From Hyphomicrobiales bacterium (GTDB lineage: Bacteria > Pseudomonadota > Alphaproteobacteria > Rhizobiales > Xanthobacteraceae), in NCBI GenBank assembly GCA_017305555.1, contig JAFKKM010000009.1, positions 1-64,000 on the forward strand: DNA of 64,000 nucleotides. Reading direction: 5' to 3'. The first letter of the stretch is position 1; every line of letters begins with the position of its first letter. The notes beneath the pieces were generated by a model. The model made no database searches and had not been told where the DNA came from. It saw nothing but the letters and a program-made list of their open reading frames with translations. The position numbers and the translations under genes were made by a program. Positions 52,492 to 59,095 of this stretch are shown piece by piece.

Positions 52492-52702
52492 CTTTTGCGT
52501 CGCAAATCCACCGGCAAAACTGACTTCCGGTGAAGCTCTGAAATCGCTTCACCGAACACGCCTCGCGATGCGACGCATGGTCCGTTTGCATCGGCGGCGC
52601 GTTCCGGCGTATGTTTGGTGATCGTAATTGTCTCTCTGCTCTGCGCGGCGCGCGGAATGCCGATGAGCCTGCCGCGGCGCGGCGCGATCGGGAGATTTGA
52701 CA

Positions 52703-53752
52703 ATGAACGCCCCCATTATACGCCTTACCAGCCTCGCCCATGGCGGCGGCTGCGGATGCAAGCTCGCGCCATCGGTGTTGCAGGAACTGCTGGCGGGGCA
52801 GCCTGCCGCAGCACCGTTCCGGCAATTGCTGGTCGGCGCTGACACCGGCGACGACGCCGCTGTCTGGCAGGTCGACGACAACACCTGCATCGTCGCCACC
52901 ACCGACTTCTTCATGCCGGTCGTCGACGATCCGTTCGACTTCGGCCGCATCGCCGCCACCAACGCCATCTCCGACATCTACGCCATGGGCGCCAAGCCGA
53001 TCCTGGCGCTGGCGATCCTCGGGATGCCGCTCGACAAGATTTCCGTCGACGTGGTGCGCGAGATTTTGCGCGGCGGCGCGTCGGTCTGTGCGGATGCCGG
53101 CTTCCCCATCGGCGGCGGCCATTCCATCGACGCGCCGGAGCCGATCTACGGTCTCGCCGTGATCGGCATCTGCCGGCCCGAACAGGTGCGCCGCAACGCC
53201 GACGCCAAGCCGGGCGATGCGCTGATCCTGACCAAGGGCCTCGGCGTCGGGGTTTATTCCGCAGCGATCAAAAAGGGCCAGCTCGACGGCGACGGCTACG
53301 CCGAGATGGTCGCCTCCACCACGCAACTCAATCGCGTCGGCGGCGACCTGTCCGCCGATCCCGCCGTTCACGCCATCACCGACGTCACCGGCTTCGGCCT
53401 GCTCGGCCACGCCTACGAGATGGCGCGAGAATCGAAACTGTCGCTGGCGATCGACGCCAGGAAGGTACCGCTGTTCTCACGCGCCAATGAACTGGCCAAG
53501 AGCGGCTTCATCACCGGCGCATCGAAGCGCAACTGGGCGAGCTACGGCGCGTCCATCGTGCTACCGCCCGCCATGCCGGAATGGCAACGCGACCTGCTGG
53601 CCGATCCGCAGACCTCGGGCGGTCTATTGGTCGCCTGCGCGCCGGATCACGCCGAGGCAGTGCTGAAGAAGGTGATCGACGCCGGATTCACATCGGCAAA
53701 AATCATTGGCCACGCCGAAGCCGGTCCTGCGCAGGTGCGGATCGAAAGCTAA
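52703..53752 (+). CDS. selD: Selenophosphate synthetase
   Basis: A 349-residue enzyme making selenophosphate from selenide and ATP, the selenium donor for tRNA-Sec. The start is placed at the ATG at 52703, because then the active-site residues fall at Cys17 and Lys20 in [10 protein letters not shown], the same numbers as in E. coli SelD. A TTG six bases upstream is possible. Further motifs are DDAAVWQ (metal aspartates), [33 protein letters not shown] and [11 protein letters not shown]. It is convergent to the selA-selB operon, so the locus has all four Sec genes: selA, selB, selC and selD. Confidence 0.97.
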
Positions 53753-53910: not shown

Positions 53911-54315
53911 CTAATTCGCCTGAGCCGGCTCGACCTTCATACGGCGGCCCCAGGTGTCGAAGAAGTGGCCTTCATTGACCACCATGCGGTCGGCGTTGAC
54001 GCGGTCTTCCAACTCGCGCAACGCATCGGCCGCTTTGGCGTCCTCCACCGGGCCGCCGTCGTCATCGATGAGCGGCATCAAGAGCACGCCGTCCCACGGC
54101 ACGTTGGCGCCGCGCATCAACAGCGTGAAGTGGTGCCAATCGAGTTCGTCGCCGATCACATGCGTGAACGTCGAGCGCAGCGGCAGCACGCCGAGATTGG
54201 CGGTCGAGATCAGAATGATCAGCGCGGTGAATCCACCGGTGCGCTGGAATTCATGCACCACCCAATCGTCGAACAGGAAGTCGTCGAGCTTCTTGCGCCT
54301 AGCAGGTTTCGACAA
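53911..54315 (-). CDS. Unknown small protein, last gene of the selA-selB operon
   Basis: A 134-residue acidic soluble protein that I do not recognise. The start is placed at a TTG (54315) with GTGGAG upstream; it overlaps the preceding gene by 17 bases. Notable segments are KKLDDFLFDDWVVHEFQRTGGFTALIIL, VIGDELDWHHFTLLMRGANVPWDGVLLMPLIDDDGG and DRMVVNEGHFFDTWGRRMKV. The many Asp, Glu and His could bind a metal, but no known site is obvious. Its place at the end of a formate dehydrogenase/selenocysteine operon suggests a role in selenium use or formate dehydrogenase maturation, by position only. Confidence 0.75.
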   Translation of the reverse strand: MSKPARRKKLDDFLFDDWVVHEFQRTGGFTALIILISTANLGVLPLRSTFTHVIGDELDWHHFTLLMRGANVPWDGVLLMPLIDDDGGPVEDAKAADALRELEDRVNADRMVVNEGHFFDTWGRRMKVEPAQAN

Positions 54316-54778
54316 GCGGCAGCTCCACGATTTCCCGCTCCATGATGCTGAGGAACGCCCCGTTGCGATGCTCGGCGAACCACGCCTCGAACGCGCGCAG
54401 CTTCTCGATGATGCTTGCTGAATCCGCTGGCGTTCCCGTCTCGGGCGCTTCCGGCTGGGACGCCTGCCAACAGGCCGCAATCACCGGCGCGAAGTTCGTC
54501 AGCGTCTCCTGCTGCGTCTCGCTGGTGCCGCTCCAGCCCAGTTCGTGCAGGAAAGCCGTGGAGCCGCGCAGGATGGCGTCCTCCTCGGTCTCGCAGCCGT
54601 CGAGCGCGGCGGTGACGGTGCGCATCAGGTTGAGCCGCCGGAAACCGAAGGCGCGATCCTGCTCCAATTCGCGGAAACGAACTGCTGCTTCCTTGCGATA
54701 ATTCTCTTCGTTAATGGAGGCGTCGTGCGCGATCCGGTCGAGATCGTCGAGTAACGCCGTCAAGGGCTGAGCCGTCAT
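54299..54778 (-). CDS. Unknown helical protein coupled to selB
   Basis: A 159-residue protein with no recognised family. It looks all-helical: an N-terminal amphipathic stretch (LLDDLDRIAHDASINEENYRKEAAVRFRELEQDRAFGFRRLN), a middle GCETEEDAILRGSTAFLHELGW, and a C-terminal IEKLRAFEAWFAEHRNGAFLSIMEREIVE. Its ATG overlaps the stop of the long selB frame as ATGA, so it is translated right after SelB has read through selC. The next gene overlaps its 3' end. It is likely an accessory factor of the Sec or formate dehydrogenase system, inferred from linkage. Confidence 0.78.
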   Translation of the reverse strand: MTAQPLTALLDDLDRIAHDASINEENYRKEAAVRFRELEQDRAFGFRRLNLMRTVTAALDGCETEEDAILRGSTAFLHELGWSGTSETQQETLTNFAPVIAACWQASQPEAPETGTPADSASIIEKLRAFEAWFAEHRNGAFLSIMEREIVELPLVETC

Positions 54779-56886
54779 CGCGCGCTCCCGTGCTTGTTGA
54801 AGGTTGGTGGAAGAGAATGGGAGTCGAACCCACCAAGAACCGACTCGCGGCCCTTCCCGGATTTGAAGTCCGGACGCCCCACCGGGAACGATGCTCTTCC
54901 AATTGTTTCAATCTTCGGCGCCGTACTCGTCTCCAAGTTACCCGGAGCCATCTCATCGGCCGGCCTGCGAAACAGGTCAAGCCGATGCTTGTTGACACGG
55001 CGCAGATCGCCTCTGCGAATTGTAACACCATGCCGGTCGAAGAATTCAAGTATCTGGATCGCGACTTTGCGGCCATTGTCGAATTTGTCGCGGAATTGCG
55101 CGGCGGTGAACTGATGATCGGCCGCCTGCTCCGACAGCGTCGCCATCACGCCGACCATCTCCGCGACCGTCGCGCGCAGGAAGAAGTGATCGTGCGCCAC
55201 TTCATCGACGCGGCCCATGCGCCCGACCAGCTTGAACAGCCGCCGCACTTCCGGCTCGGCAACGCCGGTATAGCCCGCGATATCGCGGACGCGCGGCGGA
55301 CGGAAGCGCCCCTCGCCGCCGATGAAAATTCGCACCTTGTTCCACAGCGCTTCGTCGCCCGGCGTCAGCCGCACCTCATGGCTCGGCAGGCGGATCCACG
55401 CGCCGTCGAGCGCGATGTCCCGGCTGCGCGCCAGCCCCTGCAGCAACGCGGCGAAAGCCGGCGTCGGTAGACGCGGTTCGAGTTGCAGCCTCAGCCGCTC
55501 TAGGCCGATGCCGGACAGGTTCGGATTCTCGGCGTGGAATTTCGCCAGCGTGGCGAGAATATCGTTCTTCATCCGCAGCCAGACGGCCGGCGCGATGACG
55601 AATTCGGTCTTCGCGGTGACAAGCCGCAGCAGGCTCATGCGCTGCACCAGCGCCTCGCGCTCCGTCTCCGAGATCGCACGGTCGCGAATGAAGGCGGAGA
55701 AATCGGTATAGCCGGCAGCGCAATTCAACAGCGCCGTAAGCGCACCTTCTGGATCGCTGATGGCGTTGGCCTCGAGCTGCGCGATGCGTTCCGGCGCGCG
55801 ACGCTTGCGCGCGGCAGCGCGCAGATCGAGGAACATTCCGCCGCCGATGGTTCGCTGCGCCGTGGTGTCGCGCAGCACGAAGCGATCACCGACCGCCGCC
55901 GCAATCGGCTGGTCCAGCACCAGTTGCACGAAGGCGTGACCACCGGGCGGAATCGGATCGTCGCTAAGCAGCACGATGCGCGCGCCGATCTCGGTGGCAG
56001 CATGATGCAACCGCACCGGCATCCACTGCGTGATCGGCTTGCTCTCGCCCGCCAGCACTTCGACGCGGGCGTCGATGCGGTTCGCAGGCGCGTGCAATTC
56101 CGGATCGAGCACGACGTTGCCGCGCGAAATCGCATCCTTGGTGACGCCGTCGCCGGCGAGGTTGAGCGCGCAGCGGTCGCCGGCGCGGCCGGTCTCGGTC
56201 ACGTTGTTCTGCGCGTGAATGCCGCGCACCCGGGCCTGCAACCCCGACGGGCTGACGATCACCTGATCGCCGACGTTGATGCTGCCGGACAGCACCGTGC
56301 CGGTCACCACCGTGCCGGTGCCGGACAGCGTGAAGGAACGATCGACCGCGAGCCTGAAACGCCCCTTGTCGGAGCGCGCCTGCCAGTCATGCGCCGCTGC
56401 GAACAGCCGTGCGCGCAGATCGTCGATGCCCTGCCCGCTCTGGCTCGACACCGCGAACATCTCGATATCGCTCAGCGGCGTCAGCGCCAGCGCATTCGCG
56501 ATCTCGATGCGCACTTCGGCGAGACGATCCTCGCTGACGAGATCGGCCTTGGTGATGGCAACCGCGCCGCGGGTGATGCCGAGCAGATTGACGATCGCCA
56601 GATGCTCGACCGTCTGCGGCATGATGCCGTCGTCGGCGGCAATCACCAGCAGCACGAAATCGATGCCGCTGGCCCCCGCCAGCATGTTGTGGACGAAACG
56701 CTCGTGACCCGGCACGTCGACGAAGCCGAGCACGCCGCCGTCCGGCGTCGGCAGATAGGCGAAGCCGAGATCGACCGAGATGCCGCGCGCTTTCTCTTCC
56801 TTGAGGCGGTCGGTATCGACGCCGGTGAGCGCGCGCACCAGCGACGTCTTGCCGTGATCGATATGGCCCGCGGTGCCGACGATCAT
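54775..56886 (-). CDS. selB: Selenocysteine-specific elongation factor SelB, reading through selC
   Basis: A 703-residue GTPase that brings Sec-tRNA to UGA codons with a SECIS hairpin. G motifs: GTAGHIDHGKTSL, DVPGHERFVHNML and AITKADLV. EF-Tu-like barrels follow, then the C-terminal winged-helix domains for SECIS RNA, ending with DRHGVTIRRGDLRRVNKHRLDLFR. E. coli SelB has 614 residues. Here the last ~64 residues are extra, and residues 663-694 are encoded by the complete tRNA-Sec gene read in sense with no stop. The ATG overlaps the Sel1-repeat gene stop (ATGA), and the TGA overlaps the next gene's ATG (ATGA), so the long frame looks genuine. Confidence 0.95.
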   Translation of the reverse strand: MIVGTAGHIDHGKTSLVRALTGVDTDRLKEEKARGISVDLGFAYLPTPDGGVLGFVDVPGHERFVHNMLAGASGIDFVLLVIAADDGIMPQTVEHLAIVNLLGITRGAVAITKADLVSEDRLAEVRIEIANALALTPLSDIEMFAVSSQSGQGIDDLRARLFAAAHDWQARSDKGRFRLAVDRSFTLSGTGTVVTGTVLSGSINVGDQVIVSPSGLQARVRGIHAQNNVTETGRAGDRCALNLAGDGVTKDAISRGNVVLDPELHAPANRIDARVEVLAGESKPITQWMPVRLHHAATEIGARIVLLSDDPIPPGGHAFVQLVLDQPIAAAVGDRFVLRDTTAQRTIGGGMFLDLRAAARKRRAPERIAQLEANAISDPEGALTALLNCAAGYTDFSAFIRDRAISETEREALVQRMSLLRLVTAKTEFVIAPAVWLRMKNDILATLAKFHAENPNLSGIGLERLRLQLEPRLPTPAFAALLQGLARSRDIALDGAWIRLPSHEVRLTPGDEALWNKVRIFIGGEGRFRPPRVRDIAGYTGVAEPEVRRLFKLVGRMGRVDEVAHDHFFLRATVAEMVGVMATLSEQAADHQFTAAQFRDKFDNGRKVAIQILEFFDRHGVTIRRGDLRRVNKHRLDLFRRPADEMAPGNLETSTAPKIETIGRASFPVGRPDFKSGKGRESVLGGFDSHSLPPTFNKHGSAR
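54805..54900 (-). tRNA. selC: tRNA-Sec (anticodon UCA), embedded in selB
   Basis: The minus strand folds as a selenocysteine tRNA. The acceptor GGAAGAG pairs with CTCTTCC. A long D-stem CGTTCC/GGGGCG has a CGGT loop. The anticodon arm is CCGGA-CTTCAAA-TCCGG (anticodon TCA). A long variable arm AAGGGCCG/CGGTTCTT and a T-arm GTGGG-TTCGACT-CCCAT follow, with discriminator A and an encoded CCA. The eighth acceptor pair, expected in bacterial tRNA-Sec, is C against U. The gene lies wholly within the selB reading frame. It could be made by processing of the operon transcript or from its own promoter. Confidence 0.95.
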
Positions 56887-57686
56887 GACGCGGGCTCCCC
56901 GAGCGGCCGTTTCGCCAGCGCCCGCGCACGCTCGATGTCGGCTTCGGACATCGCCGCATAAGTCGGCTGTAGGAACGATTCCGCCAACGCGCTGCCGCCA
57001 GATTGCGCGCGCAACAGCCACATCAGCGCCGCCACCGGATCGCGCGGCACGCCGGCGCCGAGTTGATAAGCTGCACCAAGCATCGCCTGCGCGTCGACAT
57101 CGCCGCGCGCCGCCGCCATGTCCCACCAGCGTGCGGCTTCTGCCGCGTCGCGCTCAACGCCGATGGCGTTGTGATAGATCATGCCGAGCCGGGTCATCGA
57201 CGGCACCACGCCTTGCGCGGCGGCAGCCTCCGCCCAGCTCTTGGCCTCGGCGAGATCGCCGGGGATCATCTGCTGCTCGTAAAGCATCCACGACAGCATG
57301 TCCTGTGCCGGGCCGTCGCCGGCTTCCGCCGCTGCACGATAGAGTTCGGCCGCTTTCACCGCGTTGGACTCGACGCCCTCGCCTTTGAAATAGAGGTCCG
57401 CGAGATTGCGCTTGCCGATGATGTCGCCGCTCTCGGCGGCGAGCGTCAGCCATTTGAACGCGAGCGCGGTGTCGCGCGCGACACCCATGCCTTCGCTGAA
57501 ACAGACGCCGACATTGTTCTGCGCCCGTGCTACGCCCTGCTGCGCCAAGGGCCCCCAGATCGCCAGCGCCGACTCGTAGTCGTTGCCGGCGGCGGCATCG
57601 AGCGCGTCCGACATCAGTTCGGCCGTAGTCTTCTCGGCCGGCTTGCTGCGGAAAGCTTTGAGCGATGAATCGAGCCAGCCCATCAT
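56883..57686 (-). CDS. Sel1-repeat (TPR-like) protein between selA and selB
   Basis: A 267-residue protein made largely of Sel1-like repeats: AQNNVGVCFSEGMGVARD, GKRNLADLYFKGEGVESN, GPAQDMLSWMLYEQQMIPGD, TRLGMIYHNAIGVERD and AQAMLGAAYQLGAGVPRD. Five or six repeats form a helical solenoid for protein binding. No signal peptide is apparent, so it should be cytoplasmic. Its start overlaps selA as ATGA and its stop overlaps selB as ATGA, so it is produced in step with the Sec machinery. It could be a scaffold for SelA/SelB or a formate dehydrogenase maturation factor; neither is shown. 'Sel1' is only the name of the repeat and does not indicate selenium. Confidence 0.85.
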   Translation of the reverse strand: MMGWLDSSLKAFRSKPAEKTTAELMSDALDAAAGNDYESALAIWGPLAQQGVARAQNNVGVCFSEGMGVARDTALAFKWLTLAAESGDIIGKRNLADLYFKGEGVESNAVKAAELYRAAAEAGDGPAQDMLSWMLYEQQMIPGDLAEAKSWAEAAAAQGVVPSMTRLGMIYHNAIGVERDAAEAARWWDMAAARGDVDAQAMLGAAYQLGAGVPRDPVAALMWLLRAQSGGSALAESFLQPTYAAMSEADIERARALAKRPLGEPAS

Positions 57687-59095
57687 GCGCGCTCCGCCAA
57701 TCCGAGGCCCGCGAGATTGCGAACGAAGCCGGCGTCATCCTCAAGGCAGCGCAGATCGAGCACCAACGCGTGCTCCGCGATGTGGCCGATCACCGGCTTG
57801 TCGAGACTGCGAAGTGCCGCCGCCAATGCAATCAAGGCACGGCCGCTCGCGCGCGCGCCTGCCGCGCGAATGGCAATGCCGGCGCTCGGCAGGGTTTCCT
57901 GCGGCAACGCGCCGGAGCCGATCTGGCTGGCGCAATCGACAACTGTTGCGACATAACCCGACCCGACGGCGGCCGATAACGCCGGCAGCAGCCGCGCTGC
58001 CTGTGCGGCGATCTCGTCCCGCTTGCGCGCCAGCAGGCGGATGGTCGGCAGGCGCTCCGCGAGACGATCGGGATCGCGATAGAGTTGCAGCGTCGCCTCG
58101 ATGGCGGCGAGCCGGACTTTGTCGACGCGCAGCGCGCGCTTCATCGGATTCTTGTTGAGCCGCGCGATCAGATCGCAGCGGCCGACGATGAAGCCGGCCT
58201 GCGGCCCGCCGAGCAACTTGTCACCGGAGAACGTGACGAGATCGGCGCCTTCGGCTACCGCCTCGCGCACGGTCTGCTCGTGCGACAGCCCGTAGCGCGC
58301 GAGATCGACCAGCGTGCCGGAGCCGAGGTCATTCAACAGCGGCACGTTTTGCGCGCGCGTGATGTCGGCGAGCGCCTTTCCGGAGACGCTCTTGGTGAAC
58401 CCCTCGACGCGATAGTTCGAGGTATGCACCTTGAGCACGAGGCCGGTCTTGGGGCCGAGCGCCGCCGCATAGTCCTTCTCATGCGTGCGGTTGGTGGTGC
58501 CGACCTCAACGAGTTTGGTGCCCGCACGCGCCATGATATCCGGCATCCGGAACGCGCCGCCGATCTCGATCAACTCGCCCCGCGAGATCACCGCTTCCTT
58601 GCCGCGCCCGAGTGTGTTCAACGCCAGCAGCACCGCACCGGCATTGTTATTGACCACCGTGGCATCTTCGGCACCGGTCAGCTCGCACAACAGGTCGCGG
58701 ACCAGATCGTCGCGCTCACCGCGCTTGCCGGTGTCGAGATTGAATTCAAGCGCGAGCGCATCGCGCATCGCCGCTGTCGCCGCTTCCACGGCCGCTTCCG
58801 CGATCTGCGCACGGCCAAGATTGGTATGGAGCACTGTGCCGGTCAGATTGAAGACCGGCCGCACCTTGGGTTGCGAAGAGCGTTCCAGCGATGCGATTGC
58901 CGATGCCACGATAGCATCCGCGTTCGGCACCGCCATCTGCTCCGAAGCCGCGCCGCGCACGTCCTCGACCGAACGCCGAAGGGCCTCCAGCAATGCGGGA
59001 CGACCGAAACGATCGATGGCTTCAATGGCGAGCGGCGTCTTCAGCAACTCGTCGATGGCCGGAATACGCCTGAATGCGGGCCCGGGATCGCGCAC
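57683..59095 (-). CDS. selA: L-seryl-tRNA(Sec) selenium transferase
   Basis: A 470-residue PLP enzyme that turns Ser-tRNA-Sec into Sec-tRNA-Sec with selenophosphate. The N-terminal domain begins RRIPAIDELLKTPLAIEAIDRFGR. The core includes NLTGTVLHTNLGRAQIAEAAVEA, ATVVNNNAGAVLLALNTLG and the PLP lysine motif FSGDKLLGGPQAGFIVG. The length matches E. coli SelA (463). The start is GTG with GGAGG seven bases upstream, nine bases after the fdhE stop. The stop overlaps the Sel1-repeat gene. It is in one operon with fdhE and the formate dehydrogenase genes. Confidence 0.97.
   Translation of the reverse strand: MRDPGPAFRRIPAIDELLKTPLAIEAIDRFGRPALLEALRRSVEDVRGAASEQMAVPNADAIVASAIASLERSSQPKVRPVFNLTGTVLHTNLGRAQIAEAAVEAATAAMRDALALEFNLDTGKRGERDDLVRDLLCELTGAEDATVVNNNAGAVLLALNTLGRGKEAVISRGELIEIGGAFRMPDIMARAGTKLVEVGTTNRTHEKDYAAALGPKTGLVLKVHTSNYRVEGFTKSVSGKALADITRAQNVPLLNDLGSGTLVDLARYGLSHEQTVREAVAEGADLVTFSGDKLLGGPQAGFIVGRCDLIARLNKNPMKRALRVDKVRLAAIEATLQLYRDPDRLAERLPTIRLLARKRDEIAAQAARLLPALSAAVGSGYVATVVDCASQIGSGALPQETLPSAGIAIRAAGARASGRALIALAAALRSLDKPVIGHIAEHALVLDLRCLEDDAGFVRNLAGLGLAERA

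Follow-up and report, generated by a model that had tools for sequence, protein, structure and literature searches.

In a bacterium of the order Hyphomicrobiales, the gene for the selenocysteine elongation factor, selB, reads in frame through a complete tRNA-Sec gene, selC. Comparison with related loci indicates that selection keeps this frame, not the peptide it encodes, because phase stays constant over many changes of linker length while the linker evolves at a dN/dS of about 0.6. In Escherichia coli, selC is a separate gene. The locus described here lies in a 64,000-nt stretch of contig JAFKKM010000009.1, analysed as a whole and called the window below; it belongs to the nested selB/selC genes that Mukai reported in 2021 (Int J Mol Sci 22:4605, PMC8124441). 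The nesting, the ATGA coupling to a downstream gene and the model of competition between tRNA and protein have all been known since that report. The evidence for frame retention is an addition to the published picture, and the first quantitative reason known to us for regarding the translated state as selected.

The features of the locus are as follows (window coordinates).

52697-53752, plus strand: selD-like ORF, convergent with the operon (from translated sequence only).
53911-54315, minus strand: ORF2, with a probable TTG start at 54315 overlapping the end of ORF1 (start inferred from sequence).
54299-54778, minus strand: ORF1, 159 aa, no match in Pfam or NCBIfam.
54775-54778, minus strand: ATGA overlap of the selB stop and the ORF1 start.
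54779-54804, minus strand: 26-nt stretch from the CCA end of the tRNA to the ORF1 ATG, prospective leader of the released fragment.
54805-54900, minus strand: selC, tRNA-Sec with anticodon TCA and encoded CCA (ARAGORN and Rfam).
54901-54969, minus strand: linker of 23 codons from the RLDLF motif to selC, differing among relatives by whole codons.
54775-56886, minus strand: selB, 703 codons, frame open through selC.
56883-57686, minus strand: Sel1-repeat gene, joined by ATGA to selA and selB (family models).
57683-59095, minus strand: selA (family models).

The selB frame runs from the ATG at 56886 to the TGA at 54777-54775 without a stop. Its product matches TIGR00475 with 417 bits (curated cut-off 242), and Pfam recognises an EF-Tu-like GTPase, the SelB beta-barrel and winged helices. 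Family matches stop at residue 630 (Pfam SelB-wing_3; NCBIfam selB), and the strictly conserved RLDLF motif finishes at residue 639. The only tRNA that ARAGORN calls in the window is a tRNA-SeC (54805-54900, minus strand, anticodon TCA); Rfam RF01852 matches it over its full length with 75.5 bits (gathering score 47), and its thermodynamic fold score is uninformative (z = -1.3). The 96 nt of selC stand in phase 0 in the sense direction: (56886-54900)/3 gives 662 preceding codons, and the tRNA forms codons 663-694 of selB. Nine further codons separate its end from the TGA, which closes the frame 30 nt beyond selC within the ATGA shared with ORF1. The earlier note on this DNA had described a tRNA lying wholly inside the sense selB frame, past the natural winged-helix end of a 703-residue SelB, with the frame closing 30 nt on in an ATGA overlap; ARAGORN, Rfam and a check of the ORF bear out this anatomy in every coordinate.

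The surrounding operon, fdoGHI, selA, a Sel1-like gene, selB/selC, ORF1 and ORF2, fits the neighbourhood published by Mukai, with ORF1 and ORF2 as putative counterparts of the ORF1 or ORF2 named there. We assigned selA, Sel1 and selB by family models, the formate dehydrogenase genes and fdhE from translated sequence only. ATGA junctions, reported by the earlier note elsewhere in the operon, do recur at selA/sel1 and sel1/selB, but fdhE and selA are separated by a short gap. Neither ORF1 nor ORF2 matches a Pfam or NCBIfam model, although ORFs of similar length stand downstream of selC in roughly half of the nested loci.

Like the published nests (PMC8124441), the window carries an entire 96-nt tRNA-Sec in sense within the selB frame, with a C-terminal extension that starts with Gly and ends with Pro, a stop that overlaps the following ORF at its start, and an association with selA, a Sel1-like gene and genes for formate dehydrogenase. 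Its 96 nt agree with the published rule that a tRNA of 96 or 93 nt keeps the frame. Mukai found such complete nested genes in diverse Rhizobiales and in some Rhodobacterales, Rhodospirillales and Caulobacterales, often with the stop overlapping the next start; Azorhizobium caulinodans serves there as an example. The same paper describes remnants in Sinorhizobium, a partial overlap of the two genes in Dyella and Luteibacter, and losses in Methylopila and Ensifer (PMC8124441). The earlier note had known of no full overlap with a coupled downstream gene; both were thus already on record. Elsewhere, as cited in PMC8124441, the mitochondrial cox1 of Armadillidium vulgare likewise contains a whole tRNA gene, tRNA-Lys, within its coding region and in the same direction, but in a compact mitochondrial genome.

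To follow the nest among relatives we drew on 60 relatives and, out of 373 related loci in species genomes, on the best 80; from these we kept 86 loci whose selB ends were non-identical and in which a selC could be located. Since the query contained the SelB tail and may favour nested cases, the counts are not population estimates. In 74 of the 86 loci selC is fully nested, always in one phase; in six (Dyella and others) the selB stop falls inside the tRNA, and in the remaining six before it. The ATGA overlap is common but not universal (36 of the 74 nested loci). These counts rule out a sequencing error or chance as the origin of the open frame, the same frame being found in so many non-identical loci and independent genomes. 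The stops inside the tRNA lie at nt 46-48, recovering the Dyella/Luteibacter type of overlap (PMC8124441), which shares phase and type of selB with the window but, unlike it, ends selB within the tRNA and has no coupled downstream gene. Nesting is dispensable, since six lineages have lost it and Mukai reports more losses (PMC8124441). Two family members, L018 (genome G024) and L020 (G028), have selB without a nested selC, and their best tRNA-Sec lies on other contigs (G024:C44 and G028:C289), so the nest was lost or never present there.

The open frame through the tRNA was rejected as evidence by itself: the selC sequence of the window is stop-free in all three frames, as it is in most relatives. 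The phase of the tRNA carries the argument. All 80 loci that are nested in full or in part have phase 0, versus at most one of six un-nested loci, one of which (L070) has an ambiguous phase (Fisher p = 1.7e-7, only a guide, as the loci are related). In nested loci the linker from RLDLF to the tRNA takes 19 lengths, from 21 to 111 nt (7 to 37 codons), all multiples of three. On one approximate, midpoint-rooted SelB tree, with tRNA starts placed from the anticodon loop, parsimony counts about 35 changes of linker length in these loci and zero changes of phase. The six un-nested loci have linkers of 40, 49, 86, 95, 130 and 273 nt, and their phase drifts. In L049 the linker shows, just before selC, an apparent in-frame direct repeat of seven residues (AFMTEGQ AFMTEGH), an example of a linker changing length by whole codons.

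The linker itself evolves with a dN/dS of 0.57-0.65 versus 0.06-0.14 in the adjacent upstream winged helix, and a conserved SelB tail domain is not supported by these values. It is accordingly most improbable that the linker and the tRNA-encoded peptide form a functional domain of SelB: the tRNA-encoded amino acids are conserved among relatives, but the tRNA explains conservation within selC, the linker shows neither constraint nor a fixed length, and tail-less lineages exist. Phase retention and the linker ratio do give evolutionary support to the read-through translation that the earlier note considered likely, and on these grounds we hold it very likely that ribosomes translate through the tRNA sequence.

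As to the origin of the tRNA, a scan of 54250-55600 found no sigma-70-like promoter, although it covered a single type of consensus and can miss promoters of Alphaproteobacteria; no intrinsic terminator was found around selC in the same interval. Synonymous change is not lowered in the winged-helix-4 region just upstream of selC (pS 0.25/0.40/0.54 vs 0.28/0.42/0.49 in the gene body), which argues against a conserved promoter there. With no promoter-like site, and with no sign of constraint at the DNA level in the linker or at synonymous sites upstream, selC is probably co-transcribed with the operon and the tRNA most likely cut from operon RNA.

The best explanation as a whole, which we judge somewhat probable, is a nested selB/selC gene in which excision of the tRNA competes with translation of SelB. 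Ribosomes would read on through the tRNA sequence, which would form the C-terminus of SelB, and reach the ATGA junction, where ORF1 could be translated, while tRNA-Sec would be cut out of the operon transcript. Once cut by RNase P at 54900, the selB mRNA would lack a stop codon, and the ribosomes on it would depend on trans-translation or other rescue; a ribosome passing over selC would unfold the tRNA, delay cutting and protect the message. Maturation of tRNA-Sec and synthesis of full-length SelB would then compete on each transcript, and SelB would be kept from exceeding its tRNA. Any one transcript would favour either SelB or tRNA, but not strictly: SelB could be completed ahead of tRNA cutting.

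This plausible model does not differ from the hypothesis put forward by Mukai, in which tRNA processing yields non-stop selB mRNA and represses both SelB and the downstream ORF (PMC8124441). Our literature searches found no experimental follow-up to that paper; reviews of 2022 and 2026 that cite it repeat the model without new data. A real effect of the competition on the SelB level is possible, at somewhat short of even chances. The SECIS-like control of SelB in Escherichia coli (Thanbichler and Boeck 2002, as described in PMC8124441) likewise sets the SelB level on its own mRNA, but through an RNA element bound by SelB and with no nested tRNA in that account.

Two other readings accept the anatomy without a balance between tRNA and SelB. 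The frame may be open only for the sake of ORF1 and ORF2, since selC lies on the path of ribosomes to the ATGA, with any tRNA/SelB balance incidental. Such a role for coupling would account for the 38 of 74 nested loci in which a start overlaps the stop and opens an ORF of at least 100 codons, and for Roseomonas, which keeps the coupling after loss of the tRNA (PMC8124441). It fits less well with the other 36 nested loci, which have no coupled ORF and yet always keep the phase, through 16 changes of linker length. Even in the 19 nested loci that lack a nearby ORF of 120 codons (in two, L084 and L039, missing only through a contig end or a broken frame) the phase is kept through eight length changes, and ORF1 often has a Shine-Dalgarno sequence of its own. 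We therefore find coupling as the sole reason for the frame rather unlikely.

Alternatively, selB may simply have lost its stop beside a stop-free selC, with nothing regulated and selC possibly served by its own promoter inside selB. A tRNA that is stop-free in most frames, a nearly neutral linker peptide and the loss of nesting in some lineages all agree with such passive overlap, as does a transposed selC (below), an intact tRNA by its score despite no more than about 185 nt of preceding selB sequence. Neutral drift, however, would shift the phase, which none of the roughly 35 linker-length changes in nested loci did, and no promoter-like site turned up in the scanned interval; we consider passive overlap improbable. 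The small set of 19 loci hints instead at retention of the frame for the sake of selB/selC itself and not of ORF1 alone. We entertain, tentatively, a direct selection for translating the tRNA: passage of ribosomes through selC would set the release of tRNA-Sec, making a self-balancing transcript whose frame is kept even with no dependent downstream gene.

The fate of ORF1 after excision can be read from its leader. A GGGAG at 54789-54785 lies six bases ahead of the ORF1 ATG, a normal distance, and the released fragment would retain ACCUUCAACAAGCACGGGAGCGCGCG before the AUG. Of 47 loci in which a start overlaps the stop, 23 have a Shine-Dalgarno tetramer ahead of that start, versus 11% of background windows (binomial p ~7e-11, the loci not being independent). 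Unlike the published description of a leader-less downstream mRNA (PMC8124441), which by its sequence does not hold in the window, the fragment here keeps a Shine-Dalgarno leader. Because of this retained leader and the Shine-Dalgarno enrichment, ORF1 probably survives excision of the tRNA and is not silenced. The earlier note's expectation that excision separates the two downstream genes is thus sound as regards their detachment from selB, but their silencing is improbable.

Beyond the published nests (PMC8124441), the genome of the window carries a second selC. This intact tRNA-Sec (72.4 bits) lies at G000:C107:27810-27905 (L111:5811-5906), with about 185 nt derived from a selB end upstream of it; identity is 74% over 310 nt including the tRNA. 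The unit spans L111:5625-5910 (G000:C107:27624-27909), its selB fragment has no evident start codon, and it looks like a transposed selB end with selC. Immediately downstream of it comes a second, divergent selB (39% identity), beside which lie NAD-type formate dehydrogenase genes, assigned from translated sequence. In the corresponding place a genome of the same genus, G001, has a different, intact tRNA-Sec (L112:5449-5544); the sequence homologous to it in the window's genome, L111:5930-6048, is decayed and recognised by neither ARAGORN nor Rfam. The copy thus seems to have replaced the local selC of the divergent selB. Its acceptor stem has G3:U70 where the nested selC has A3:U70. As G3:U70 is the classical alanine identity pair, mischarging of the transposed selC product by AlaRS is conceivable.

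Bacterial tRNA genes that ribosomes read as protein code are very rare, and in this case the encoded protein is the carrier of that same tRNA. If excision and translation do compete, each transcript would set the ratio of SelB to tRNA-Sec, a ratio that matters because excess SelB sequesters Sec-tRNA.
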